Below are positions 7,273 through 60,503 of a stretch of 64,000 nt of DNA, in pieces. Under the pieces are notes generated by a model. It worked only from the letters and a program-made list of their open reading frames with translations. It ran no database searches and had not been told where the DNA came from. Source of the stretch: Rhodoferax sp. TH121 (GTDB lineage: Bacteria; Pseudomonadota; Gammaproteobacteria; Burkholderiales; Burkholderiaceae_C); contig NZ_NOXW01000019.1 of the NCBI RefSeq assembly GCF_002251855.1, positions 186,001 through 250,000 of the forward strand. Reading direction: 5' to 3'. How positions within the stretch are numbered: position 1 is the first letter of the stretch; each line of letters opens with the position of its first letter. The translations under genes were made by a program, and so were the position numbers.

Positions 7273-8613
7273 ATGATTACTATTAAATTCATAGCTGTTC
7301 GCGCAGTTATCACGGGGGTTGCAGCCCTTTTTTGCACTAGTTTTGCATGGGCGGGCATTCCTATCCAGCACTGGACGCAGCCCAGCGGGGTGCGTGTCTA
7401 CCTGGTGGAGAGCCCGGCGATTCCCATGGTGGACCTGCAAATTGACTTGGACGCCGGAGGGCGCCGCGACCCGGCCGACAAGCCGGGGCTGGCCAACCTG
7501 ATGGCCTCCAGCACGTCCAACGGCGTACGGGCCACGGCCACCGAACCTGCGCTGGACGAGCACCAGCTCAGCGAGGCTTGGGCCGACCTGGGAGCCTCGT
7601 TTGGGGGCGGTGCAAGCGCTGACCGCATGAGCTTTGCCCTGCGCAGCCTGACCTACCCGGACCTGCTGGACAAGGCCGTGGTGCTGGCTGCGCGCCAGCT
7701 GGGCGAGCCATCCTTCCCTGAAGCCCCTTGGTTGCGCGATCGGCCCAAGCTGATGGCCAGCCTCAAGGAGGCCAACACCCGCCCGGCCACGCTGGCAGCA
7801 CGCGCTCTCAGCCGTGCGGTGTATGGCAGCCACCCCTACGGTTGGGAAATGACGGAAGAAAGTCTGCTGCGCACCAGCGTGCAAGACCTGCGCACACTGC
7901 ACGCCACGGCGTTGCGGGCCTGCGACGCCCGTGTGAGCATCGTGGGGGCGCTGACCCGTGCCCAAGCCGATGCGCTAGTCACGCGCCTGCTGGCCCGCCT
8001 GCCCAAGACCGCGTGCACAGCGCAGCCGGTGGTGCCTGAGGTGCAGCCACTGACGGCCGCCTCGGAGCAGCGCATCCCCTTCGCATCGGCCCAGGCCCAG
8101 GTGTTGTTGGGTCAGCCTGGCTACAAGCGCAACGACCCTGACTTCTTCGCCTTGCTGGTGGGCAACCACATCCTGGGCGGCGGCGGTTTCACCGCACGCC
8201 TGACCGAAGAGGTGCGCGAGAAGCGTGGCCTGACCTACAGCGTCTACAGCAGCTTTTCGCCCGGCTTGCATGCGGGCGCCTTCACTATCGGCCTGCAGAC
8301 CCGGCCGGACCAGGCCGACCAGGCGCTGGGCCTGGTGCGCGAAGTGCTGGCCAAGTTTGTGGACCAGGGCCCGACCGAGAAAGAACTGCAGGCGGCCAAA
8401 GACAACCTGGTGGGGGGCTTTGCGCTGCGCCTGGACAGCAACAAGAAACTGCTGGACAACGTGGCCAACATCGCCTGGAATGGTCTGCCGCTCGATTATT
8501 TGGACCGCTGGACCCAGCGCGTGGAGGCGGTCCGTGTGACCGATGTGCGCACCGCCTTTGCCCGCGTGCTCCAGCCGCAGAGCATTGCCACGGTGGTGCT
8601 TGGCGCGCCCTGA
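7273..8613 (+). CDS. M16 family peptidase-like protein (non-catalytic partner)
   Basis: A 446-residue partner of the preceding peptidase. It has the M16 fold but no HxxEH: the matching region reads KPGLANLMASS. The C-terminal half keeps the R...Y pair in LTEEVREKRGLTYSVYSSF, which in this family binds substrate in the heterodimer. The N-terminal export signal (about residues 1-27, ending SFAWA) is encoded largely by a copy of the dispersed repeat described elsewhere in this window (7281-7326), which is unusual. It probably works in the periplasm with the upstream subunit. Confidence 0.88.
   Translation: MITIKFIAVRAVITGVAALFCTSFAWAGIPIQHWTQPSGVRVYLVESPAIPMVDLQIDLDAGGRRDPADKPGLANLMASSTSNGVRATATEPALDEHQLSEAWADLGASFGGGASADRMSFALRSLTYPDLLDKAVVLAARQLGEPSFPEAPWLRDRPKLMASLKEANTRPATLAARALSRAVYGSHPYGWEMTEESLLRTSVQDLRTLHATALRACDARVSIVGALTRAQADALVTRLLARLPKTACTAQPVVPEVQPLTAASEQRIPFASAQAQVLLGQPGYKRNDPDFFALLVGNHILGGGGFTARLTEEVREKRGLTYSVYSSFSPGLHAGAFTIGLQTRPDQADQALGLVREVLAKFVDQGPTEKELQAAKDNLVGGFALRLDSNKKLLDNVANIAWNGLPLDYLDRWTQRVEAVRVTDVRTAFARVLQPQSIATVVLGAP
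7281..7326 (+). repeat. Dispersed repeat copy encoding an export signal
   Basis: The segment ATAGCTGTTCGCGCAGTTAT followed by a G-rich stretch and TTGCAGCCC matches the repeat core (ATAGCTG-YT-YGCGCAGTAT, then GGGCT-GCC). It encodes residues roughly 4-18 of the non-catalytic M16 subunit, the core of its signal peptide. Confidence 0.6.
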
Positions 8614-48396: not shown

Positions 48397-48424
48397 TGGC
48401 GGAAGCTGTGAGAAGCTAACTCAC
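48397..48424 (-). other. Left island junction: displaced 3' end of tRNA-Ser (att site)
   Basis: The plus strand reads TGGC-GGAAGCT-GTGAG-AAGCTAA-CTCAC. Read on minus this is a T-arm (GTGAG/CTCAC) followed by acceptor strand AGCTTCC, discriminator G and CCA. It is exactly the 3' end that the broken tRNA-Ser at 60417-60503 (5' acceptor GGAAGCT) needs. The T-arm matches the right junction in 14 of 17 positions, marking the recombination core. Confidence 0.8.
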
Positions 48425-48562
48425 TACCTCGCGAACTCAATCAAATCAAAGACTTAGGTGCGGTCGGGCCCCGCATTTTGGCATACTTCAGTGCATGACC
48501 AGAACGGACCTGCAGACGCGGATCACCCGCCCGCTGAGATCAGAGCTGCTGAGGCAGACGTT

Positions 48563-49216
48563 CTAGTCGAAAAGCGCATCCTGCTGTTTCTTGGTGCTCC
48601 TGGGCGCGCTGACGGGCTCGATGGGTCGCCCGAGAAAGCAGAAATCGGGGATGCTGAGCGGCTCGACCACACCGAACGCTGCTTCGCCGTTCTTTGACAA
48701 CCTTTCTCGAAGCTCCATTAATAGTCGCCCAAGGACATTTTGTCCAACTAACGTCGTGCCGTCCTCTGACAACTTTGCGCCCCAATATGTATCTCGCCTA
48801 GATTGTTCAACAATTGGTCGCTCTTTTGTGGCAAGCAACAAGCGTGAAAACTCATCAAAATTTTGGTTCAGCTTCACTCGTAGGCACCATCGCATTATTT
48901 TGAACCGAACTTCGTCCCAGTCACTCCTGGTCTGCGATTTGAAGGTCTTTGCCTTCATCTTTGCAGTCATTGGGCTGAATTGACCAATTATTTCCTGTTG
49001 AGCCTCTGGATTATTTGGGTATCTGCATGCTTGGTAGAGAGCTTCACTTGTTGGCACTCTCACCCCATTTATCTTCAATGGGAAGCCTGCTGCCATATTT
49101 GACAGGCCGCCAAAATCGTCCTTGGTCTTGTAAACGACAACAACCAAACCACGCTCATACGTACGGTTTGCTTCCGACGTCTGAGGCGCGTTATTTAAAG
49201 AATTTTCCGAAGACAT
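48563..49216 (-). CDS. NADAR-domain protein
   Basis: A 217-residue protein of the NADAR family (YbiA-like N-glycosidases; some family members remove ADP-ribose from guanine and act as antitoxin to DarT toxins). Family signatures are FGGLSNMAAGFPLKI (usual F-S-N pattern), VPTSEALYQACRYPNNPEAQ and the C-terminal DTYWGAKL...GQNVLGRLLMELRERL. Its start overlaps the end of the phosphoribosyltransferase-like gene by 26 bases, indicating one operon. It is visibly AT-richer than the chromosome, so it was acquired. Proposed role: eraser or antitoxin partner of the upstream protein (inference). Confidence 0.85.
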   Translation of the reverse strand: MSSENSLNNAPQTSEANRTYERGLVVVVYKTKDDFGGLSNMAAGFPLKINGVRVPTSEALYQACRYPNNPEAQQEIIGQFSPMTAKMKAKTFKSQTRSDWDEVRFKIMRWCLRVKLNQNFDEFSRLLLATKERPIVEQSRRDTYWGAKLSEDGTTLVGQNVLGRLLMELRERLSKNGEAAFGVVEPLSIPDFCFLGRPIEPVSAPRSTKKQQDALFD

Positions 49217-50225
49217 TCTCGGGGCTCGAATAATTCTTCCGGGCGAGCAGGGGGTACCACTTCAGCGCCCCTGACACCTCGTCCGGATTTCCCCACCACA
49301 ATGCCAAAGGGCAATTGTTCGGGCAATTCCGATATGTTACGACTGTCGCTCCAAAACCAAGACCGAAGAACCCGTGACCGAGTGGTCTGTTTACATCGGC
49401 TACTTGCCCTTGCGAGCGAATTTGTGCACCTGCGATAACGAATTCACGCTCCAGTATCTGACGCCCCGCTTCAGAAGAAAATGGATCTCTAGCGGCGCCT
49501 GGCGTCCGCGGGTCGAACGGAAATTTGTGAGGAAGCGCGAGATAGTCGTTCACTACCTTCACATTTGGAGCCTCAATTGGCCAGAGAACTTCAGAGCTGT
49601 TCTTGTAGCTCTTCCGATTTTCTATTTCTGCCAGGCGCCAGTAGGTAAAGTCAATTTTCTTCTGGGACTCCGTGACCGCAGTGCCAAGGTTCTTGCCAAG
49701 ATGGAAGCGACCTAGCGTATGCCACGCAATAACAATAACTTGGACGGAGGCTTTAGCAGGCGCGGATTTTCTGATCCAATCTCCCAGGTCGGTGCCGATA
49801 CGACCGCCGCTAAAGATGACATCATCCAGATAAATGAAATTCGAGTCTTCTTGACCGCATTCAGCGAGGCTAATTCCAAGTTCTTCTTGGAGGAGTTTGT
49901 CAAAGATATCGACCATTGCCGATTGACTTTGCCCGTCCTGCTGAATATCGAGAACGTTCGCCTTTAACCAATAGCTTTTTGGGTCTGTACCAGACAGCTT
50001 TTCATTGGTGATGAGGTTGCGAAGGAAGCTTTTAACCAGCTTCTTGGTGATGAACTGGCTCTTCATCACATGGTCGAATTCCCGAAGGAAGGCAAGTTGG
50101 TTGCCTGGGGTGAACTGGCTGACCCAGCGGTCGACATGCTGAGCTGTAGGCTCGGGGAGTTCGCCCTTTCGATACGTCTTGATTGTGGTGGCGATCGACT
50201 CCAATAGGTTCTGTCGTTCCGTCAT
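49191..50225 (-). CDS. Phosphoribosyltransferase-like protein, putative effector paired with NADAR
   Basis: A 344-residue protein from the ATG at 50223-50225 (the open frame upstream runs into tRNA-Ser). A PRPP-binding-like motif, [16 protein letters not shown], is at residues 129-144: hydrophobic stretch, two Asp (134-135), then a Gly-rich loop, as in type I phosphoribosyltransferases. An N-terminal helical region of about 85 residues and a long C-terminal region (with [20 protein letters not shown]) have no recognised family. Low GC and the NADAR neighbour suggest a conflict system. The biochemical activity is untested. Confidence 0.6.
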
Positions 50226-50243
50226 CAAGGTCCCCGCAATGGT

Positions 50244-50266
50244 CAACGGGGCCGCTGGCCCCGTTG
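50244..50266. repeat. Strong hairpin between tRNA-Ser and the PRTase gene
   Basis: Perfect 10-base arms CAACGGGGCC and GGCCCCGTTG with a 3-base loop, lying between the tRNA 3' end and the PRTase start on minus. No T-run follows, so transcripts from the tRNA might read on into the PRTase/NADAR operon. Confidence 0.7.
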
Positions 50267-50278
50267 TGATGTTTACGC

Positions 50279-50366
50279 TGGCGGAGAGCCAGGGATTCGA
50301 ACCCTGGAGCCCTTGCGGGCTGCCGGTTTTCAAGACCGGTGCAATCGACCACTCTGCCAGCTCTCC
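50279..50366 (-). tRNA. tRNA-Ser (UGA), complete, inside the island
   Basis: An 88-nt class II tRNA on minus: acceptor GGAGAGC pairs with GCTCTCC, discriminator G, encoded CCA, anticodon loop CTTGAAA (anticodon TGA), a long variable arm AGCCCGCAAGGGCT and T-loop TTCGAAT. All stems pair. It lies between the two junctions of the island and could replace the tRNA-Ser(UGA) that the island broke at 60417-60503. Confidence 0.95.
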
Positions 50367-50450
50367 GTGCGAGCATTGTAAGTTGTAACGAGCGTGATTT
50401 CAGATGATCAGCCTCGGATTGCGCTGATCATGGCAACAATATGCCCTAGT

Positions 50451-51302
50451 TCAGCTCATGGCCGGTACGAGCACATCCCACCAGAGGTTGCCGTCCACCG
50501 CATCACCAGGGACGAGGCTCTCGCTGACGGGCAGAAGGCAGGCGTCCACTTCGGCGACTTGGCTGTCACGGAGCAGGCCGGTGCGGTGTGCGTCCAAAAA
50601 CGACGCTGCCATCCACCGCATTGCCTGTTCGTTCGTGGCGACCACCGCGAGCCTGGCCAGCCACAGGCCGGACGCAATCTCGACCTGACGTTCACCACCC
50701 AAGCAGTCCTGCACCAGGGCGACAGTCTTGTGTCGTTCTGGCCGCGACTTGGCTGAGTTCTCGCATTCCAACCAAGTGCAGGCCCCATCGTTGGTGATGA
50801 CCAGGCCATCGGCCTGTTTGCCTTTCAGCACACGGCAAGGCCCGCGCTCGCTGGCAATCTCGTGTTCCGTCACGATTTCAAGACCTTGTTGCACGGCTCG
50901 GATGAGGTACCAGTTGCTGCAAGCCCGATGCACTGGATTGCCGAGCGCCAAAGTGTTGCCGCTTTCGGCGGGATGGCCTGTCTGCTCAGTGAGCAGCCGA
51001 GCTCCCTTGGCCGAAAGCAGGTACGCCGCGCCGCCCTTGGGCAGGGGACGGCTGATGATGAGCTTGTCGTCGGCCAGCGCCTTCAACATGCGGCGAGCCA
51101 TCGCCTGCGATTGTGAGGCGTCGGGCCAGACCAGTGCAGCGACCATACGACCGGTGAGCCAGCCGAAGCGGGCCAGCCAGGTCAGCACGTCGGTGCGATT
51201 GCGCTCGCCAATTACGCGCTTGTCTGGCGTCTCGGGAGCCGAGTCGTCGGCCAGTGTGCCGGTGGGCAGCACGGTCGAGGGGAAGGTGTCGGTGTCGTTC
51301 AT
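50451..51302 (-). CDS. Winged-helix protein resembling replication-relaxation proteins
   Basis: A 283-residue protein. The N-terminal half looks like a winged-helix region (VLTWLARFGWLTGRMVAALV, then AMARRMLKALADDKLIISRP). The C-terminal half has ADGLVITNDG...TWLECENSAKS, an Asp...Glu-x-Glu arrangement similar to replication-relaxation (Replic_Relax) proteins of plasmids and integrative elements. It is on the integrated island, so a role in element maintenance or transfer is plausible. A hairpin shared with another island gene lies 74 bases before its start. Confidence 0.5.
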   Translation of the reverse strand: MNDTDTFPSTVLPTGTLADDSAPETPDKRVIGERNRTDVLTWLARFGWLTGRMVAALVWPDASQSQAMARRMLKALADDKLIISRPLPKGGAAYLLSAKGARLLTEQTGHPAESGNTLALGNPVHRACSNWYLIRAVQQGLEIVTEHEIASERGPCRVLKGKQADGLVITNDGACTWLECENSAKSRPERHKTVALVQDCLGGERQVEIASGLWLARLAVVATNEQAMRWMAASFLDAHRTGLLRDSQVAEVDACLLPVSESLVPGDAVDGNLWWDVLVPAMS

Positions 51303-52247
51303 GGGCTTGTCTCCAGGTTGCTGAGCACCCTTGTGCTCTTCGACCTATAGCGACTGCGCCGCATGCGCACCATGTCCAGTCCGGCAGATCGCGCCGGACT
51401 GGAGGCCGACCGGTCGTTTTCCCCGGCTGGACGCCGGGCCACTCCCTGGGGTGCTAGGGCACCCCTCCGGCCCGAATACCGCGCCCCTTCTGCCGCTGCG
51501 CGGCCGGGCAAGGGGTTACACACCTTCCGCTCGCATCACAAGCCCCTGCGGGTCATGTCATGCGGGGCCTACGTCCCCTGCTCACGGCCGGGCTGGACGC
51601 CCGGGTCTGGCGACTGTGCAACCCCTTGCCCGGCCGCTCTGCGTCGGGGGCGGGGTGTCCACGCGCTTACGCTCTGGCACCCCCGGATGAACCAGTCCGA
51701 CGTGGGCGTCGGTACGCGCTTGGACTGCGCTCAGGTCCACCGGCTCCCCGCCGTTCTCGTCCCGCATGGGGCGGGAGCATCGACCGGGACTGCGCGGCGC
51801 CAGCCGCTTGTCCCACCGCTTCGCGGCGGCACCCTGAGCAACGCCGGGGGCGTCGCTGCACCCGGCCGGCGCTGCGCCCGGCCAGCGTTTAAAACCGCTT
51901 GCCTACAGTACCCGTGGAGGAGAGGGCTCAACACCCCGCGGCCACGATTCAAGCGCACCAAGCGGGAGACACGGGTGCGGCGCTGGGTGGCACATCTGGA
52001 AGCGCGTCGGGGGCGGGTGCAGTCCGCCTCGTAAGTCCAGATGTGCTGCGGCGTACCTACGCGACCGCAGCGCCTGAAACGACGGGCTGGCTCCAAACGT
52101 CCAGCACTTCGCGGGCAACCACCTCCAACTCGCATGATCCACGCGGGGTCGGGGGGTGTTTTGCCTTCGCTCAGAGCTTCCACCACCGTCCAGCGAAAGA
52201 ACTCTTACCCTTGGAAGAAAGTTCTACCAACCCTCACTGTGACGAAT
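51303..52247. other. Structured GC-rich region without a convincing gene
   Basis: About 945 bases in which open frames exist on both strands but none shows protein-like composition. It holds perfect inverted repeats: CCAGTCCGGC/GCCGGACTGG (51376-51402); CGGCCGGGCAAGGGGTT with its complement (51501-51517 and 51620-51636); and CACATCTGGA/TCCAGATGTG (51991-52045). Candidates are an origin of transfer or replication, or a structured RNA. No promoter was assigned. Confidence 0.55.
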
Positions 52248-52275
52248 GAAAAAGGCCCGCAACGCGGGCCTCGGG
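52248..52275 (-). terminator. Rho-independent terminator of the 219-residue gene
   Basis: Read on minus: AGGCCCGC, GTT loop, GCGGGCCT, then TTTTC. It lies 17 bases beyond the stop of the gene at 52292-52951. Confidence 0.85.
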
Positions 52276-52291
52276 GAACACCGGCGCGACT

Positions 52292-52951
52292 TCAGCGCGC
52301 GCGGAAAGGGAACGCGCGCGTCTTCAGCAGGACGATGCTCCGGCCCGCCGTGTCGGTCTTCGGCTCGTTGCCCAGCAGCACCGAGGCCATTAAAGCCGCA
52401 GACATCTTCTCGGGACTGTGCCATTCCTGCGGGCGGTACTGGGTGCCGCTGTGGTCCTGCATCAGGCCCAAGGTGGTCACGTCCTCAACCGTCAGGCGGG
52501 CCAGGTTCGACGCAAACCGGGTCGGCGAGATGAACACCGACAGGACTCCCTGCTTGAGGGCCATGTTGATGCCGTCCTGCAGCCCGCGTGCGCCGGTGCA
52601 GAAGGAATGCGCCGCTGTGTCCCAGCACAGGACCTGCCGACGCTTGAGCAGGTCGGTCGAAATCTGGTCGTTGAACGACAGCTCCGTGTGCGCAAGCTGG
52701 TCGACGGCGTGGGCATACTCTTTGCCGACCCAGTGCACCCACATCGGGGCATCCCAAAGCTCCTCGGGAACGAGCCAAGGGAAAACCCTGCCGGGCACCT
52801 CAAAGACTGAGGGCGGCAGGTCGTGGGCGACGGCCAGTGCTACGAACCGGGCAATCTCTGGGTCACGGTACGCCATGTCAGCCGTGGGCGCGCTCAGGCG
52901 CAGCGGGTTCTGTTCAGCTTCGATATCAATAGCAGCGAAAATAGTGGTCAT
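52292..52951 (-). CDS. Hypothetical island protein (219 residues)
   Basis: Not recognised. The protein begins MTTIFAAIDIEAEQNPLRLS and is soluble, without signal or membrane segments. Segments such as MWVHWVGKEYAHAVDQLAHT and FISPTRFASNLARLTVEDVT look like a real folded protein, and a good terminator follows it. It is divergent from the restriction-modification gene, with 84 bases between starts, so a regulatory or accessory role for that system is possible but unproven. The plus-strand frame over it looks spurious. Confidence 0.6.
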   Translation of the reverse strand: MTTIFAAIDIEAEQNPLRLSAPTADMAYRDPEIARFVALAVAHDLPPSVFEVPGRVFPWLVPEELWDAPMWVHWVGKEYAHAVDQLAHTELSFNDQISTDLLKRRQVLCWDTAAHSFCTGARGLQDGINMALKQGVLSVFISPTRFASNLARLTVEDVTTLGLMQDHSGTQYRPQEWHSPEKMSAALMASVLLGNEPKTDTAGRSIVLLKTRAFPFRAR

Positions 52952-53035
52952 TAAATAATTCCATTGGGTTATGGCCGATTGGCCGTGAATCCAATACAGC
53001 GCTCCCGTTTAGCCTCGCTCCAAAAAAAACCGAAC

Positions 53036-55528
53036 ATGGCCACCAAGTCCAAGAAGCCCACAGCCGCACCCGCCACGCCGTTCCCCACCGCACAAGACGC
53101 CCTGCACCAAGTTGGGCACTGGATGTGGATACCTTTGCGCAAGGAGTGGCGCGATGTGACCACCAAGCCCGAGGAGGTGGTCCGCCAGAAGTTCATCCGC
53201 ATCTTGGTCGAGCACTACGGTTACGACCTCGCGCAGCTCGACCAGGAGCGCAGGACGCAGCACGGACACAAAAGCCCCCGGGCTGACATCGTCGTGTGGC
53301 AGTCGGCCGCTGACAAGATCGCCAAGCCGGTGAGGGCGCCGGTGCTGGTGGTCGAGTGCAAGACCGACAGCATCGAGATTCAGGAGCGCGACTACTACCA
53401 GGGCGAGTCCTACACACGCGCCTCAGGCTGCGAGTTCTTCGTCGCCACCAATGCCCGGCACACGTCTGTGTTCCGGCTTCTGCCTGGCCTGCCGGGCGGT
53501 TTCGTCGCCATCAACGAGATACCCAAGGCCACCGACTGGGGCGACGCCAAGCGGCTGAAGGAAATCAAGGAGTCCCTGCGCGCCTTCAACCGCAAGGAGT
53601 TCCAGGACCTGCTGCTGGGCTGCCACAACATCCTGCGCGACGTGCACAAGATGGACCCGGGCCGGGCCTTCGACACCATCAGCAAGGTGCTGTTCATCAA
53701 GATGTATATCGAGCGGTCGGGGCAGCACGGCACGTTCAGCGTGGACTATCTCGACCGGCGTGCCGCCGTCCGCCTGCCCACCGACCCGGCCGTGCACGAC
53801 GGACTGTTCGAGCAGACCAAGTCTTACTACCAGGCCGACGAGCTGTTCACCGCCGCCGACAAACTGGACATCTCGGAGGCCACGTTCCGCCGCATCGTCA
53901 AGGAGCTGGAGCGCTTCGACCTGGCCAAGACCGGCGACGACATCAAGGGCCTGGCGTTCGAGCGCTTTCTCGGCACCACCTTCCGGGGCGAGCTGGGGCA
54001 GTTCTTCACGCCGCGCCCGGTGGTCGAGTTCATGGTTGACCTGCTGAACCCGGCCGAAGGCGAGCTGGTGTGCGACCCAGCAGCCGGGTCGGGGGGCTTC
54101 CTCATCCGGGCTTTCGAGCATGTTCGCGCGATGATCCAGCACGACATCCAGGCGAAGAAGGACGCTGAGCGCGCCCGCATCGAAGCCCTCAAATTGCCCG
54201 AGGAAGAGGAAGAGCAGCAGATTGAAGCCGCCTTCGCGGAGCTGAACCACGAGCTGCTGCCCAGCGGCGCAGACAACAAGCCCATCGACACCCGTGTTGG
54301 CCGTCTGGCCTGGCAGTGCATTTACGGTACCGATGCCGAGCCCCGCGCCGCCCGCACAGCCAAGATGAACATGGTCATGCACGGTGACGGCCATGGTGGC
54401 ATCCACTACCACGATGGTCTGGTGGACATCAACGGCATCTTCGACGGCCGGTTCGACGTGGTGCTGACGAACCCGCCCTTCGGCTCCAACGTCGGCAAGG
54501 ACCAGGTGCTCGGCGGCAGCGAGGAGGCGCGCATTCCGACCGACCCGGCATACATCGCCGCGTGCAAGAAGCGCTACGGCAAGGCCTGGGAGGAGAACCA
54601 CAACCGCCTATTGCAGTTGGAAACCGAGGGCACGACCATCCTCGACCTATTCGATATTGGCGCGGGTAAGGCCAATCGGCCGACTGAGCTGATATTCGTC
54701 GAGCGCTGCCTGAACCTGCTCAAGCCGGGCGGGCGCATGGGCATCGTGCTGCCGGATGGCAACCTGAACAACCCGTCGTTGGCCTGGCTGCGCCGGTACG
54801 CCGAAGGGCGGGCCAAGCTGTTGGCCGTGGTCGGCCTACCAGAAGAAACCTTTCGCTCCAGTGACGCCACCGTCAAGGCCTCGTTGGTCTTCATGACCAA
54901 GTTCACCGATGACGAGTCGGCGGCGTGGGATGCCGCCTGGGAGCAAGCCCAAACGGAGCTTGATCCCAAGTTCGACGGCCAGCGCAGCGACCTGCACGCG
55001 GCCTACGCTCCTCGCATCGTGTCGTGCGACGACAAGGCAGCGGCAACGCTGCTGGGCAAGCTCGCCAAGCTGGGTGTCACGCGCGCCCTGCCGGTGTGGA
55101 CGCAGGGCGAACCGCCCGCGTACCCGCTGGGCGTCGGGCCAACACAGCAGGCAAAGCCCTTGTGGGCCGGTGTCCCCAGCAGCAAGAACAAGGACGCCGC
55201 CAGCGAACTCAAGCGCGACGCGCAAGCCGCACTAGCCGCCGCCACCAAGGCTGGCGATGCGCTGCTGTCTGAGCTGAAGGCCAAGTACCGAGAGGTAGAC
55301 GCCGCCCACACCGCCGCCCTGTGGGCGCGCGTGCGGGAACTGTTCGACTACCCCGTGTTCGTTGCCGCTCCTAAGGCGGTCGGCATCACGTCCACAGGCG
55401 AGACAGGCGAGGGCGTTACCAACGACCTCACGAGCACGCTGGCTTTGTTCCGGCAGTTCGAGCAGTGGATTGGCAAAGGCGCCCCAGTGCTGGAGCAGCC
55501 AAATTTTCCGGAGCCCTCCACTGCTTAA
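53036..55528 (+). CDS. Restriction-modification fusion: nuclease domain plus HsdM-type N6-adenine methylase
   Basis: An 830-residue protein from the ATG at 53036. The N-terminal domain looks like the HsdR N-terminal nuclease, with D84 (RADIVVW), E107 and K109 (VVECKTD) forming a PD-(D/E)xK set, then YYQGESYTRASG. No helicase motor follows. Instead comes an HsdM-type methylase: GQFFTPRPVVEFMVDL, CDPAAGSGGFLI (SAM motif) and the catalytic NPPFGSNVG. A separate specificity subunit overlaps its 3' end. This is the layout of BcgI-like enzymes, which cut and methylate with one polypeptide plus an S subunit. Confidence 0.88.
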   Translation: MATKSKKPTAAPATPFPTAQDALHQVGHWMWIPLRKEWRDVTTKPEEVVRQKFIRILVEHYGYDLAQLDQERRTQHGHKSPRADIVVWQSAADKIAKPVRAPVLVVECKTDSIEIQERDYYQGESYTRASGCEFFVATNARHTSVFRLLPGLPGGFVAINEIPKATDWGDAKRLKEIKESLRAFNRKEFQDLLLGCHNILRDVHKMDPGRAFDTISKVLFIKMYIERSGQHGTFSVDYLDRRAAVRLPTDPAVHDGLFEQTKSYYQADELFTAADKLDISEATFRRIVKELERFDLAKTGDDIKGLAFERFLGTTFRGELGQFFTPRPVVEFMVDLLNPAEGELVCDPAAGSGGFLIRAFEHVRAMIQHDIQAKKDAERARIEALKLPEEEEEQQIEAAFAELNHELLPSGADNKPIDTRVGRLAWQCIYGTDAEPRAARTAKMNMVMHGDGHGGIHYHDGLVDINGIFDGRFDVVLTNPPFGSNVGKDQVLGGSEEARIPTDPAYIAACKKRYGKAWEENHNRLLQLETEGTTILDLFDIGAGKANRPTELIFVERCLNLLKPGGRMGIVLPDGNLNNPSLAWLRRYAEGRAKLLAVVGLPEETFRSSDATVKASLVFMTKFTDDESAAWDAAWEQAQTELDPKFDGQRSDLHAAYAPRIVSCDDKAAATLLGKLAKLGVTRALPVWTQGEPPAYPLGVGPTQQAKPLWAGVPSSKNKDAASELKRDAQAALAAATKAGDALLSELKAKYREVDAAHTAALWARVRELFDYPVFVAAPKAVGITSTGETGEGVTNDLTSTLALFRQFEQWIGKGAPVLEQPNFPEPSTA

Positions 55529-56856
55529 TCCGGCAGTGGAGGGACATTGAGCGTTGGATTGAGACCGAGGCGGCTCAGGCCCGCACAAGCGGATTCCCGC
55601 TGGTGCCGTTGCGCGAGCTGCTGACCGAGCGCAAGGAGCCCGTGCGCGTCACGGTTGGGCTGGGTGATTGGCAGCCCATCACCATCAAGTTCTCAGGCGA
55701 GGTGCTTCCCCGCGACCGCGCGGAAGCCTTCAAGGGAGCCATGTTCGCGGCCTACCCCGGCGACGTGGTGTTTTCCAAGATTGATGCCCGCAACGGCGCG
55801 GTCGGGCTCATCCCGGCGACCATGCCCAAGGTGGTGTTGACGCCCGAATATCCGGTGATGGTGCCGGACCTGATGAAACTGCGGCCCGCTTACCTGCACT
55901 ACCTGCTGCGTGCCGAGCACTTCCGTCATGATCTGCAACGCCAAGCATCAGGAACCAGCGGGCGAAAGCGCGTCACGCCCGAGGCCTTTCTAGGCCTGAG
56001 CGTGCCCTTGCCGACGCTCGATGAGCAGGACGCCTTGGTCACGGCCTACGAGGCTGCTTTGACCAAAGCAGCGGACAAGGAGGCCGACGCTGCGCGAATG
56101 GCTCTGGCAAGTCAGCGCGCTTTTGAGGCGGCGCTTGGTGTGGCACCAGCGCCACCGCTGCCCGACCGCCCGGTGTTCATTGCGCGCTTCAAGGACGTGG
56201 AGCGGTGGAGCCACGAAGGCGTGCTGCGGGACGTTACCTATACCGCCTCGACTTCGGCAAAGTGGCCAATGGTGGCACTGTCGAGCGTCGGCAAGGTGAG
56301 CTACGGCTTGCAGAAGTCGCCGGCCAACCGGCCCGGCAAGCACTCGCGGCCTTACCTGCGCGTCGCCAATGTGCAGCGGGGTGTGCTCGACCTCGCCGAG
56401 ATGAAGTACATGGACGTGCCCGACGACGACATGCCCAAACTGCGCCTGCTGGATGGTGACGTGCTGCTTTGCGAGGGCAACAGCCCCGACCTGGTGGGCC
56501 GTGGCGCCATCTGGCGCAATGAGATTTCGGACTGCATTCACCAGAACCATGTGCTGCGGGTCCGCGTGGACTTGAGCAAGCTGCTTCCGGACTTCCTGCT
56601 CGCGGTGATCAACTCCAGCCACGGACAGGCCTATTTCAGGTCTAAGGCCAAGCGCACTACGAATCTCGCTTCCATCAACAGCACGGAGGTGGCTGCTCTG
56701 CCCGTGCCGCTGCCACCGACAGCGAAGCAGGCAGCGCTGGTCAAAGCACTGGGCGACAACGAGAAAGCCTCGAAGGCTGTTGCCTTCGAGGCCAGTGAGT
56801 TGCGCCGGGTGGCTTGGGCGACCTTCGAGGCGGCCCTGTTCGAGCCGGGAGTCTGA
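55465..56856 (+). CDS. Specificity (S) subunit of the restriction-modification enzyme
   Basis: A 463-residue HsdS-like protein with two target-recognition regions and conserved helices: the first region includes MFAAYPGDVVFSKIDARNGA and ends LSVPLPTLDEQDALVTAYEA; the second has RPYLRVANVQRGVLDLAEMK and ends AALPVPLPPTAKQAALVKAL. Two recognition regions imply a bipartite DNA target. The frame opens with ATG at 55465, 64 bases inside the methylase gene; the true start is uncertain because no other start is close. Confidence 0.85.
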   Translation: MDWQRRPSAGAAKFSGALHCLIRQWRDIERWIETEAAQARTSGFPLVPLRELLTERKEPVRVTVGLGDWQPITIKFSGEVLPRDRAEAFKGAMFAAYPGDVVFSKIDARNGAVGLIPATMPKVVLTPEYPVMVPDLMKLRPAYLHYLLRAEHFRHDLQRQASGTSGRKRVTPEAFLGLSVPLPTLDEQDALVTAYEAALTKAADKEADAARMALASQRAFEAALGVAPAPPLPDRPVFIARFKDVERWSHEGVLRDVTYTASTSAKWPMVALSSVGKVSYGLQKSPANRPGKHSRPYLRVANVQRGVLDLAEMKYMDVPDDDMPKLRLLDGDVLLCEGNSPDLVGRGAIWRNEISDCIHQNHVLRVRVDLSKLLPDFLLAVINSSHGQAYFRSKAKRTTNLASINSTEVAALPVPLPPTAKQAALVKALGDNEKASKAVAFEASELRRVAWATFEAALFEPGV

Positions 56857-56877
56857 TTGGGCGCTGGACCTGGGACG

Positions 56878-57159
56878 TCACAGGTTCAGGTGCGGCCAGT
56901 GTTCCTGTAGGTCCACGAGCAGGTCGTTGGCCCGGGCCCAGCCCTGTAAGTATTCGCACTCGTGCCTGGCTTCTTCTGGTGCATGTCGGTCATGGATGTG
57001 CAGCTCACATGCCCGGAAGAGCAAGTCCGTCACGGCGGACAGCTCACAGGCCAGCGCCTCGATGACCAGCTCGCTGCTGCGAGCGCTCTGCGGCGGAATG
57101 GTGGCGATGCAGCCCTCGGGCGTGAAGCCCTCGCGCTGGGTGGTGTCGGTTACTGTCAT
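56878..57159 (-). CDS. Small hypothetical island protein (93 residues)
   Basis: A 93-residue protein, MTVTDTTQREGFTPEGCIAT at the start, then a helical segment SELVIEALACELSAVTDLLF and an aromatic C-terminal part (LQGWARANDLLVDLQEHWPH). The much longer frame upstream is not protein-like. No family was recognised. It is convergent with the S subunit and divergent from ardC. The leader upstream contains a hairpin (57247-57268) like that before the winged-helix gene. Confidence 0.55.
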   Translation of the reverse strand: MTVTDTTQREGFTPEGCIATIPPQSARSSELVIEALACELSAVTDLLFRACELHIHDRHAPEEARHECEYLQGWARANDLLVDLQEHWPHLNL

Positions 57160-57414
57160 GTCGGTCCTCAATGGTTGATTCGGACCTAGTGAAAGAAGCA
57201 GATTTATTCTCTCAGGGGCCAGCCCCTCGCGGCAGGCAACGGTGCAGTCCGCGCAGGATCGCGCGGACCCTTCGGCCCGTCCCTCCCCCTCTTCCGTCGT
57301 GCAGACGGGGTAGTGCCCCGGCCTGGCCTGCGGCCGTTGCCTTCTTCTTCCCCCGGTTTCGCCAACGGGCAGGGGTGCCATCCACAGCACCCCACACCCG
57401 ACAGGAGAACACCC
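57160..57414. other. Divergent leader region with hairpin
   Basis: The 255 bases between the 93-residue gene and ardC carry no gene. They include the inverted repeat GTCCGCGC-AGGATC-GCGCGGAC (57247-57268), similar in sequence to the hairpin at 51376-51402 (CAGTCCG ... GATCGCG ... CGGAC). Confidence 0.5.
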
Positions 57415-58314
57415 ATGGAAACCAAACCACGCCGAGACCTCTACGCCGAGGTCACGCAACGCATCATTGCCGCCCTGGCGCAGGGCGTAAGGCCCTGGGC
57501 CTGCCCTTGGAAGGCTCAGGTCAGCACCTTGAGGCGGCCGATGCGTCACACCGGGGAACCGTACCGGGGCATCAACGTGCTGTTGCTGTGGTGCACGGCC
57601 CAGGAGCGGGGCTATCAGCACAACACATGGCTGACCTACAGGCAGGCCGAAGCCCTTGGTGGTCAAGTCCGCAAGGGCGAGCGTGGTGCACTGGTGGTTT
57701 ACGCAGGTCGGCACACTGCGGCTGACACGACTAGCGCCGATGAAGACGCAGCAGAGCCAGCGCAGGCGCGAGGCGTCGCCTTTTTGCGCAGCTACACGGT
57801 GTTCAACGTTGAGCAGCTGGATGGATTGCCTGCCACCGGTGCAGGATTCAGCGCGGAGCATTCCCAGGTGACGCCCGACGAGCGGACCGAGGCCTTCTTT
57901 GCCGCGACGGGTGCCCGCGTGCAGCACGGCGGCGACCGGGCCTTCTACGCACCCGGTCCGGACGTTGTGCAACTACCCCAGCCTTCGGCTTTCAAAGACG
58001 CTGCCGCCTACGCCGCAACCAAGGCCCACGAGCTTGCTCACTGGACAGGCCACCCGCAGCGCCTTGCGCGAGAGTTCGGCAAGCGCTTCGGTGATGCCGC
58101 ATATGCCGTGGAAGAGCTGGTGGCCGAGCTGTGCGCTGCCTTCGTCTGTGCTGATCTGCAAATCGGCACAGAGCCCCGCGAGGACCACGCTGCCTACGTA
58201 GCGGACTGGTTGAAGGTCCTGCAAGGCGATAGCCGAGCCATCTTCACGGCCGCAGCCCAGGCGCAGCGCGCTGCCGACTACCTTTACCAACACCAAGGGG
58301 TGCGCCATGGTTGA
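57415..58314 (+). CDS. ardC: ArdC-family antirestriction protein (zincin)
   Basis: A 299-residue protein: N-terminal single-strand DNA-binding ArdC_N domain (RDLYAEVTQRIIAALAQGVR, PWACPWKAQ, YRGINVLLLW, TYRQAEALGGQVRKGERG), then a metallopeptidase-like C-terminal domain with HELAH at residues 205-209 and the following acidic segment. ArdC proteins protect incoming mobile DNA from host restriction. The ATG at 57415 follows ACAGGAGAA. It overlaps the next small gene by 8 bases. Typical cargo of conjugative elements. Confidence 0.9.
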   Translation: METKPRRDLYAEVTQRIIAALAQGVRPWACPWKAQVSTLRRPMRHTGEPYRGINVLLLWCTAQERGYQHNTWLTYRQAEALGGQVRKGERGALVVYAGRHTAADTTSADEDAAEPAQARGVAFLRSYTVFNVEQLDGLPATGAGFSAEHSQVTPDERTEAFFAATGARVQHGGDRAFYAPGPDVVQLPQPSAFKDAAAYAATKAHELAHWTGHPQRLAREFGKRFGDAAYAVEELVAELCAAFVCADLQIGTEPREDHAAYVADWLKVLQGDSRAIFTAAAQAQRAADYLYQHQGVRHG

Positions 58315-58579
58315 AACAATGTTGATGCTGGCCGTGGTGGTGGGAGGTGTTGCCTTGTTCGCTGGCTTGGTCTGGTGGGTCAACTGGCGAATCTATGGCC
58401 GGTTCCCCACGTTCGAGCAGTACCAGTGCCTGCACCCCGATTCGGTCAAGAACGGGGGGTGTCGCTGCCACATGTGCGGCGGGCAGCGTGTCTTCTTGCA
58501 GCACCTGGACGGAGAGCTTGACCGGCGCCGTCATATCTGTGTGACCTGCGGCACCGTGCTGTACCGCTCGCGAACATAG
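58307..58579 (+). CDS. Small membrane protein with Cys zinc-ribbon-like motif
   Basis: A 90-residue protein: a membrane helix (about residues 3-26), then a soluble part with Cys at GGCRCHMCGG and HICVTCGTVLYR, four to five Cys arranged like a zinc ribbon (C-x-C-x2-C ... C-x2-C). The start overlaps the end of ardC by eight bases, so expression is coupled. Unknown family. It could be an accessory of ArdC or of the element. Confidence 0.6.
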   Translation: MVETMLMLAVVVGGVALFAGLVWWVNWRIYGRFPTFEQYQCLHPDSVKNGGCRCHMCGGQRVFLQHLDGELDRRRHICVTCGTVLYRSRT

Positions 58580-58581
58580 CC

Positions 58582-60339
58582 TCAGCTCTTCGCTTCCATG
58601 GCCCAGGCCCCGTATGGGGCCGGTAGCGTGACGCCGTCAAAGTTCAGGGTCTTGACGTACTCCAGCAGCATGGCGGGGCCGTGACCCCGGCCATAGGCCG
58701 ATTCACTGCCCTCGGTTTCGATGAGGCCCACATCCTGGCCTCGCAGGCGCTTACGGCCTGTGTAGGCCTGTGCCATGCCAGCAGGCCACTGGTGGCCGGG
58801 GCGCTGTGCGTCGCGAATGCGGTCTTCGAGTTGGTGGCGAAAGCTGTGGTTGCCAAAGCCACGGCCGAAGGCGAGTTCGTCGCGCACGTAGCGCAAGAAG
58901 GCTTGTTCGTAGGCGCGGCCGAGGATCGGGTTCTTTCCGCCTGGCGTCGGCAGGCTGGACGGGAATAGCATCGCGTGCTCGCCATCGGCCTGACGGCGCT
59001 GCTGGACGAATTCGACGAAGCCCAACGTGCACAGCGTGGGATGCAGCGGGACCACCCGCTCGGTTGCCTCGTTCTTGACGCTGCGCGCCGTGCCAGCAGC
59101 CAGCAGGTCGGCCTGTTCGCCTTCCAGCTCGGCGCGGAAGTGCACCACGGGCACGGCCCCAGCACTGCTGATGTCCGAGGCCACCAGCTGGAGCACTTCA
59201 CGCACGCGGTTGCCGTGGAACAGGCAGACCAGCGGCACCCAGTACCGCGCCGCGAGGTCCCGGCCCATCTTGCCGCGCCACCGGTCGGACCCGGCCTGAT
59301 ACCAGTCCGAGGTGAACACGGTCGTGAGCTGCGCGTCCGTGAACGGGTGGCGGGGCTTTTTGCGAGCCCGCTCCTCTTTGGCGGTCAGCATCGGCATGAC
59401 CTCCATGTCATCGACCGGGTTCGCGCCTTGCAACATACCGCGCGTTCGCGCCAGGCCGAAAACTTCCCGGAGGGTGCGCTTGACGAGCCCGTGCGCATGC
59501 TTCATCGACCAGGGCTTGTCAGGTGCGCGCATGCGCGCTTCCAAAAACTCGTAAAGGTCAGCGCCCTTCACAGAGGCCAGCGGCACATCGCCCATGTGGG
59601 TGATCAGCCGCGACCAGATGTTCAGCGACGTGCCCAGGTGCTTGGCACCTGAGGTTTGGCGCTTGTAGTCCCGGTACGGGTCATTCATGGCGCTGAGCAT
59701 GTCGCCTTCGGCGGCAGGCTTGGCCGGTGTCGGAGTTGCCTCACCATCGGTGCGGCGGAGCAGCCGACCTGCCGCGTCGCGCTCCACCTCGGCGAAGGCC
59801 CGGACGAGCTGCGGATAGAGCGGGTCGGTGCGTTCGACTAGACAGTCAACCTGCATGCACCACAGGTCAATGACATCCAGTACGTTGCCCCATTCCGGCG
59901 AGGCCTTGCCCCGCTGCACCACCGAGCGCATGGACTGGTCAGTGACCTGGCAGAGCTGCGCCAGCGCCGCACCCGCAGCATCGTCGTAGCCGTCGCCCTC
60001 GAAGCGGGCTTCGTCGTCGAGCCGCATCCAGTGGTACAGCCGCCGTGCACAGATGTGCTCGATGAGGTCGTGGGTGAGGACGCGTGGGCTGGTTGCAGGG
60101 CCTTTGGCCTTGGCGAGCAGTTGATCCCACTCGGCCCGCTTGTCCGCGATGAGCTGGGAACCAATGGCCTTGGCACGGCGCAGGTCGGCTGTGCCGGTGG
60201 ATTTGCGGAACTCGCGCACCCCTGGCATGCCTTTGAGCGGGGTCGGAGGGACCAGCCGAACGTACCAGTTCAGCGTGCGGCCGTGGTCGGGCCGGTAAAA
60301 GTTTTCGGGCACTTCGCGTTGATTCCGTGTGGCACACAT
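58582..60339 (-). CDS. Tyrosine recombinase (island integrase)
   Basis: A 585-residue site-specific recombinase from the ATG at 60337-60339, with an N-terminal domain similar to DUF6538-type integrases (TLNWYVRLVPPTP, FRKSTGTADLRRAKAIGSQL). The catalytic domain shows the first Arg in CLFHGNRVREVLQLVASDI, HSFRHQLEDRIRD (HxxR) and a Tyr in LLEYVKTLN near the C-terminus. It starts 78 bases from the 3' end of the broken tRNA-Ser, the usual place of an integrase relative to its attachment site. Confidence 0.9.
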   Translation of the reverse strand: MCATRNQREVPENFYRPDHGRTLNWYVRLVPPTPLKGMPGVREFRKSTGTADLRRAKAIGSQLIADKRAEWDQLLAKAKGPATSPRVLTHDLIEHICARRLYHWMRLDDEARFEGDGYDDAAGAALAQLCQVTDQSMRSVVQRGKASPEWGNVLDVIDLWCMQVDCLVERTDPLYPQLVRAFAEVERDAAGRLLRRTDGEATPTPAKPAAEGDMLSAMNDPYRDYKRQTSGAKHLGTSLNIWSRLITHMGDVPLASVKGADLYEFLEARMRAPDKPWSMKHAHGLVKRTLREVFGLARTRGMLQGANPVDDMEVMPMLTAKEERARKKPRHPFTDAQLTTVFTSDWYQAGSDRWRGKMGRDLAARYWVPLVCLFHGNRVREVLQLVASDISSAGAVPVVHFRAELEGEQADLLAAGTARSVKNEATERVVPLHPTLCTLGFVEFVQQRRQADGEHAMLFPSSLPTPGGKNPILGRAYEQAFLRYVRDELAFGRGFGNHSFRHQLEDRIRDAQRPGHQWPAGMAQAYTGRKRLRGQDVGLIETEGSESAYGRGHGPAMLLEYVKTLNFDGVTLPAPYGAWAMEAKS

Positions 60340-60416
60340 ATTTGGCACACCTATCGATTCCAAGTCCTTGATTTTCAAGAACTTATCGACAAATCAACGA
60401 CTTACTTTAAGTTCGA

Positions 60417-60503
60417 CGGGGAGGGTGAGATTCGAACTCACGGAGGGGATAAACCCTCGCCGGTTTTCAAGACCGGTGCCTTAAACCGCTCGGCCAAGCT
60501 TCC
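60417..60503 (-). pseudogene. Broken tRNA-Ser (UGA) at the right island junction
   Basis: On minus: 5' acceptor GGAAGCT, intact D arm, anticodon loop CTTGAAA (TGA), variable arm and T-arm (GTGAG-TTCGAAT-CTCAC), but the 3' acceptor strand is CCTCCCC, which pairs with GGAAGCT at only two Watson-Crick positions (plus one G-T), and G is followed by TCG, not CCA. The fitting 3' end lies at 48397-48407. The tRNA was probably interrupted in its T-arm by the island. Confidence 0.8.
60425..60441 (-). other. Right attachment site core (T-arm of tRNA-Ser)
   Basis: The T-arm GTGAG-ATTCGAA-CTCAC (plus strand) matches the left site at 48408-48424 at 14 of 17 positions; differences are in the loop. To the right is chromosomal tRNA 5' sequence, to the left the integrase. 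Confidence 0.65.

Follow-up and report, generated by a model that had tools for sequence, protein, structure and literature searches.

As a rule, islands residing in tRNA genes restore the tRNA that they enter (the Islander rule, PMC4383910), and such canonical islands have a tyrosine integrase gene by the tRNA and a displaced 3' fragment of the latter at the far end. In tRNA-dependent lysogeny, reported in 2024 together with experiments for Fionnbharth and other actinobacteriophages, a tyrosine-family integrase uses a single-copy tRNA gene as the bacterial attachment site (attB) with a short core, the gene is not rebuilt and the element bears a tRNA of its own (PMC10865867). All these traits recur in the locus considered here, a 12,012-bp island in a tRNA-Ser(UGA) gene of Rhodoferax sp. 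TH121, contained in a stretch of 64,000 nucleotides (contig NZ_NOXW01000019.1, positions 186,001 to 250,000) that is called the window below; in contrast to the canonical islands (PMC4383910), the tRNA is not restored. It is very probable that this tyrosine-integrase island destroys its target tRNA and replaces it.

The known systems are characterized here from passages of the papers cited. The actinophages are temperate phages with Lys, Ile2 and Leu tRNAs as targets, whereas a 12-kb island and the T arm of tRNA-Ser(UGA) are involved here; anticodon-loop cores are called common for mycobacteriophages, and a Lactobacillus prophage is mentioned in the Discussion as a possible further case (PMC10865867). 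Essentiality of the disrupted host tRNA, and dependence of stable integration on the tRNA of the element, also belong to the characteristics of tRNA-dependent lysogeny. In Sinorhizobium meliloti AK21 and RU11/001, Lo5R7ANS-like prophages split tRNA-Leu(UAG) (PMC11476347, mentioned in PMC12429752), the cut lies in the central part of the tRNA, and the replacement tRNA is foreign, matching that of Octadecabacter at 97.6% (PMC11476347). The proteobacterial host, the cut tRNA and a replacement from another lineage are common to that case and ours, but the Sinorhizobium elements are prophages in a Leu(UAG) gene, and conservation of the tRNA over an element family is described here and not in the passages of PMC11476347. 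The recA island of Vibrio cholerae also enters an important gene and brings along a divergent copy of it, the target being a protein gene and not a tRNA (PMC4405046). Literature on a non-phage island that splits and replaces a tRNA was not found among open-licence titles and abstracts, which is weak evidence of novelty.

The split host gene and the island borders

The following features define the two junctions:

60425..60503, minus strand: host-derived 5' part of the split tRNA-Ser(UGA), 79 bases, ending at CTCAC, the end of the T arm
60414..60424, minus strand: island-derived tail CCTCCCCGTCG, standing in for the acceptor 3' strand and CCA
60425..60441, minus strand: attachment core on the tRNA side, GTGAGTTCGAATCTCAC
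48408..48424, minus strand: attachment core on the far side, GTGAGTTAGCTTCTCAC, with an alignable distal arm in the related locus L249
48397..48412, minus strand: severed host tRNA 3' end CTCACAGCTTCCGCCA, displaced from the split tRNA-Ser(UGA)
48413..60424: integrated island, 12,012 bp, with borders set by comparison of its flanks with the empty sites of L064 and L065

A preliminary description of the window had proposed that the island split a tRNA-Ser(UGA) gene, that the lost 3' end lay at 48397-48412 and that the borders were at 48.41 and 60.43 kb, and the present data agree with it on all these points. No tRNA was called by ARAGORN at 60417-60503, and the split gene has the lowest score (37 bits) among the 42 Rfam tRNA matches of the genome. 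Host-derived sequence stops at 60425, and the CCTCCCC tail that follows is island DNA; the acceptor strand and CCA are missing at this junction, and the tRNA 3' end is not regenerated by the attachment site of the element (attP). The displaced fragment is present at the far end of the island, where the exact 16-mer TGGCGGAAGCTGTGAG has its single occurrence in the window (48397-48412). According to predicted folding, the broken tRNA is down to three acceptor pairs, against seven in the native tRNA of a relative.

Six loci of the same genus were used for the empty-site comparison, both neighbours being found in two of them and a match on the ureG side only in the other four. In the former two, G001 (L064) and G007 (L065), an uncut tRNA-Ser(UGA) stands between the same neighbours, as had been anticipated for island-free relatives; the match on the side of the MFS gene ends at window position 48412, that on the ureG side starts at 60425, and the two overlap by 5 bp, CTCAC. 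Neither of the two contrary findings named in the preliminary description was made: in the relatives, this position shows an undamaged AGCTTCCGCCA end. The 79 host-derived bases of the tRNA together with 16 bases upstream are identical to those of G001 and G034 (95/95 aligned bases).

The T-arm 17-mers GTGAGTTCGAATCTCAC (60441-60425) and GTGAGTTAGCTTCTCAC (48424-48408), both on the minus strand, are identical at 14 of 17 positions. All mismatches fall in the T loop, the host loop being kept at the tRNA-side junction and the other loop at the far one, and for this reason the strand exchange would be best placed within TCTCAC, common to both cores.

The putative replacement tRNA and related islands

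Another tRNA-Ser(UGA) gene, intact and overlooked in the preliminary description, lies inside the island:

50279..50366, minus strand: complete replacement tRNA-Ser(UGA) with CCA encoded (ARAGORN; Rfam, 56.2 bits)
50375..50403, minus strand: promoter-like CTGAAA-17-TACAAT upstream of the replacement tRNA (consensus match only)

This gene is not a copy of the native split one, with which it shares 66 of 92 positions, and its T-stem pairs differ from the target of the integrase. A seven-pair acceptor stem is predicted for it, the same as for the native tRNA of the relative. The 12-mer with the -10 of the promoter-like site is conserved in L249.

The draft genome (3.99 Mb, 22 contigs, completeness 100) gave 42 Rfam tRNA matches, all of which were read; the serine set consists of GGA, CGA, GCU, the broken UGA and the island UGA. 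One odd match, C13:9899-9970 (L254:498-573), was read as Asn(ATT). The UGA anticodon arm has only two copies in the draft, so that the island tRNA is the only intact UGA decoder found, and the host tRNA gene overlapped by attB is present as a single copy, within a draft lacking Asp and Glu tRNA genes. The UCA codon is read only by the anticodon UGA, and genes of the neighbourhood do use it; the ureG frame, for instance, has two UCA codons. As long as the host gene remains cut, the cell should therefore be unable to do without the island tRNA.

The island genes needed for comparison with related elements are as follows:

58582..60378, minus strand: tyrosine integrase (PHROG_1 integrase, E 3.7e-14; DUF6538 below cut-off)
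57313..58314, plus strand: ArdC-like anti-restriction protein (Pfam ArdcN and MPTase-PolyVal), 61% identical in L250
50451..51302, minus strand: Replic_Relax-like protein, its gene lying just upstream of the replacement tRNA (Pfam match with E 1.8e-4 that does not reach the gathering score)
49191..50225, minus strand: PRTase-CE protein, NCBIfam DS32_1_antiphage (384 bits, cut-off 250)
48563..49216, minus strand: NADAR protein, NCBIfam DS32_2_antiphage (271 bits, cut-off 240)

The closest relative of the integrase, 57% identical, was found in L076, from the Burkholderiales metagenome-assembled genome UWPOB_VITRI1, and adjoins a tRNA-Ser(UGA) and an ArdC gene, just as in the window. On another contig of the same genome (G1150), in the locus L249, a homologue of Replic_Relax precedes a tRNA that agrees with that of the island at 88 of 88 positions; downstream of this tRNA are a far attachment site and then CTCACCGTCTCCGCCA, which equals the displaced end predicted from the host's own 5' acceptor GGAGACG. 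These two contigs would represent the two ends of one element. The gene order is the same in the window and L249, and their Replic_Relax genes are 67% identical in protein and 70% in DNA. Against this DNA background of about 70% (ArdC and integrase proteins, 61% and 57%), the probability of an 88/88 match is about 7e-15 if 69% identity is assumed, which points to strong selection on the island tRNA. In L076, the 36 initial bases of the host tRNA-Ser(UGA) (8438-8473) have a second copy at 8302-8337, 136 bp ahead of the complete gene, and this is perhaps a scar of another integration or a duplication.

Relatives of the integrase were present among the 399 genomes of the order in its own genome and G093, and among genome contigs in L076 and L077, and none was found in the plasmids, phages or viral contigs searched. 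The integrase proteins of G093 and L077 are identical, and the two may be one genome. L075 and L077 encode one and the same more remote homologue, which shares about 42% identity with the window protein and adjoins an intact tRNA-Ser(GGA). The UGA arm was not found in the genome of L077 (G1151), which is uninformative on the tRNA cargo of the L077 island. A search of plasmids with the Replic_Relax protein gave no matches.

As for the origin of the island tRNA, its pattern matched 17 viral contigs, 15 of them with a tRNA-Ser(UGA) whose identity does not exceed about 85% (78/92, 75/88), and long matches reached about 82-84% among the best 8 of 561 phage and the best 12 of 71 plasmid records. The pattern GTTCTTATCTRAACC was found in none of 299 family genomes. 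A 28-base piece of the island tRNA occurs in 2 of 399 family genomes, namely this one and G973, belonging to another genus of the family, where a tRNA-Ser(UGA) differing in one base is followed by an integrase-like frame (by eye). A host similar to G973 is a possible source of this tRNA.

Probable loss of restoration and alternative explanations

The L076 element supplies the 3' end CGCTTCCGCCA, which fits a GGAAGCG acceptor found in some members of the genus and family. With GGAGACG of its present host, this end forms one G-U and one A-C pair, and the acceptor stem of the chimeric tRNA is absent from the predicted minimum-energy fold. The tail in the window differs from CGCTTCCGCCA by three indels and two substitutions. 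Since the two tails can be aligned and the similarity extends past them, the element in the window probably also had a restoring-type end formerly. Both elements hold the identical tRNA, yet only the L076 site keeps a tRNA 3' end; judging from these two elements, the tRNA was probably captured earlier than the restoring end was lost.

Cut tRNA-Ser(UGA) genes have been found in other members of the genus as well. The UGA anticodon arm is present in 75 of 103 genus genomes, and inspection of all 75 revealed 72 intact genes and three cut ones (this genome, G817 and G018). A second tRNA-Ser(UGA) accompanies the cut gene in all three, while the intact relatives have one gene each except for G036 with two copies, each at a contig end and with identical upstream sequence, which was set aside as a contig-end duplicate. 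The contrast of 3/3 with 0/72 corresponds to a Fisher value of 1.5e-5 (rough, the genomes being related), or 5.9e-5 when the duplicate of G036 is counted (1/72).

G817 and G018 carry an element type different from the island in the window. The element of G817, 3.3 kb in size (C1:1956239-1959541, L186/L187), is located in the T loop, has inverted ends TTATCTRAACCRA and brings its own tRNA-Ser(UGA), native-like and with CCA not encoded. Comparison of four of its open reading frames with Pfam gave no recombinase, but one helix-turn-helix protein and one weak HAD match below cut-off, the other two giving nothing. Inverted ends of the same kind are present in G018 (L138, C122:11982-13895; L184, C134:65870-66303), where the far end, assembled on a different contig, has a foreign tRNA-Ser(UGA) 191 bp inwards; a part of this element is presumably IS3-like. 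Judging from both of its junctions, the native T stem of G018 would have been TAGGG/CCCTA, different from GTGAG/CTCAC of the intact genus genes compared.

In the mechanism that we propose, the integrase would act on the T arm of the host tRNA-Ser(UGA), a single-copy gene, and recombine it with an attP that matches little beyond this arm. Integration would remove the acceptor 3' strand and CCA, which attP does not supply again, as is seen at the junction, and the complete foreign tRNA-Ser(UGA) found in the island would arrive with its promoter-like site and take over the decoding of UCA. Such whole-gene cargo may relieve attP of the need to match the host acceptor stem, and loss of the tRNA-bearing part would be lethal unless the entire island exits and the host gene rejoins. 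The earlier statement that restoration had failed or the end had been altered is, thus, right in that the gene was not rebuilt, but it is incomplete: restoration did not simply fail, and the island would replace what it breaks, because its tRNA is the only intact UGA decoder found and is conserved throughout in the related island.

An ordinary restoring island could also have rebuilt a working tRNA whose 3' end decayed later, the spare tRNA being present by chance. The related island speaks for such a history, as its CGCTTCCGCCA is a fitting 3' end in hosts with the GGAAGCG acceptor. At the same time, the host-derived part and its flank do not differ from those of G001 and G034, and all five changes are confined to the tail, for which the chance is about 2e-5 if uniform drift is assumed (11 of 99 bases); a part of the tail difference may be older divergence between the islands, likewise preceding integration. 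Hence, later decay is improbable, and the alteration of the end supposed in the preliminary description most likely took place within the element before this integration. It is still harder to believe that the tRNA is cargo of the neighbouring PRTase-CE and NADAR genes, unrelated to the split gene. It does adjoin these DS-32-like genes in the window, but L249 has the identical tRNA without them beside it, and at three plasmid loci carrying the pair there is no tRNA within about 6 kb; this explanation was rejected on these grounds. An assembly error or a chance repeat might be thought of in a draft of 22 contigs, yet both junctions are on one contig, the window contains the missing 16-mer once, without a mismatch, and a like anatomy is observed again in L249/L250, G817 and G018, so that such an artefact has hardly any probability.

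Several points weigh against replacement by the island. Genes for tRNA-Asp and tRNA-Glu are lacking from the 42 tRNA matches; the draft misses some tRNA genes, and the absence of a further UGA gene in the missing sequence is, consequently, not absolute. Expression, charging and essentiality of the island tRNA, as well as excision and mobility of the island, are presumed. The 75 genomes are related, and their counts are not independent. Finally, 28 of the 103 genus genomes, G026 and G828 among them, gave no anticodon arm. When a looser pattern was applied to 14 of these 28, nine of which are rated at least 90% complete, nine hits in five genomes were obtained, none of them a tRNA; the tRNA-Ser(UGA) of arm-less genomes may be on islands lost from the assembly.

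Other genes of the island and significance of the finding

The remaining proteins of the island are listed below:

52292..52951, minus strand: protein of unknown family (no matches in Pfam, NCBIfam, PADLOC or PHROGs)
52964..55528, plus strand: Type I methyltransferase (HsdM-like) with an HSDR_N_2 N-terminus
55465..56856, plus strand: Type I restriction specificity (HsdS-like) subunit (PADLOC Specificity_I, E 4e-55; Pfam and NCBIfam below cut-offs)

The integrase frame opens at 60378 (TTG), and comparison with the relative indicates a likely start near 60348. HGxRVxE and HSxRH stretches, which we take to be tyrosine-family integrase motifs, are conserved in three integrase homologues. The Type I M and S genes occupy 52964-56856, and no separate R gene was seen beside them; plasmid DNA of Acidithiobacillus caldus matches a part of the M gene at 77-78% identity. 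A stretch of about 900 bp with about 70% G+C between the Replic_Relax gene and the next one (51363-52291), much of which aligns with L249, contains a 29-nt inverted repeat (51494-51522 / 51615-51643) and may be an origin or transfer site.

The adjacent PRTase-like and NADAR proteins, both above their NCBIfam cut-offs, correspond to a predicted DS-32 defence pair. This pair was probably inserted later, since it is not next to the tRNA in L249 and its segment has 51% G+C compared with 65% for the remaining island. No relatives of PRTase-CE were found in viral contigs.

No phage structural family was recognized by Pfam or NCBIfam among the eight main island proteins, and PHROGs, applied to four of the eight, gave only integrase, anti-restriction and one family of unknown function. 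For this reason, although the proposed mechanism would work similarly to tRNA-dependent lysogeny, we do not class it as lysogeny. It may also be supposed that mobile DNA other than phages makes general use of destruction and replacement at tRNA-Ser(UGA), with the integrase island and the 3.3-kb G817-type element having converged on a T-arm cut and tRNA supply, and with the tRNA of the island family kept unlike the integrase target as a retention device; in our opinion, this broader idea is tentative and rather doubtful.

Summarizing, this case adds a small defence island to the temperate phages in which tRNA-dependent integration is known. It bears on the question, left open in the Discussion of PMC10865867, whether tRNA capture or loss of restoration comes first. 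Tools requiring a restored tRNA beside the fragment are expected to miss or mis-map such islands. For the bacterium, an element of this kind would represent a route by which mobile DNA may become indispensable to its host.

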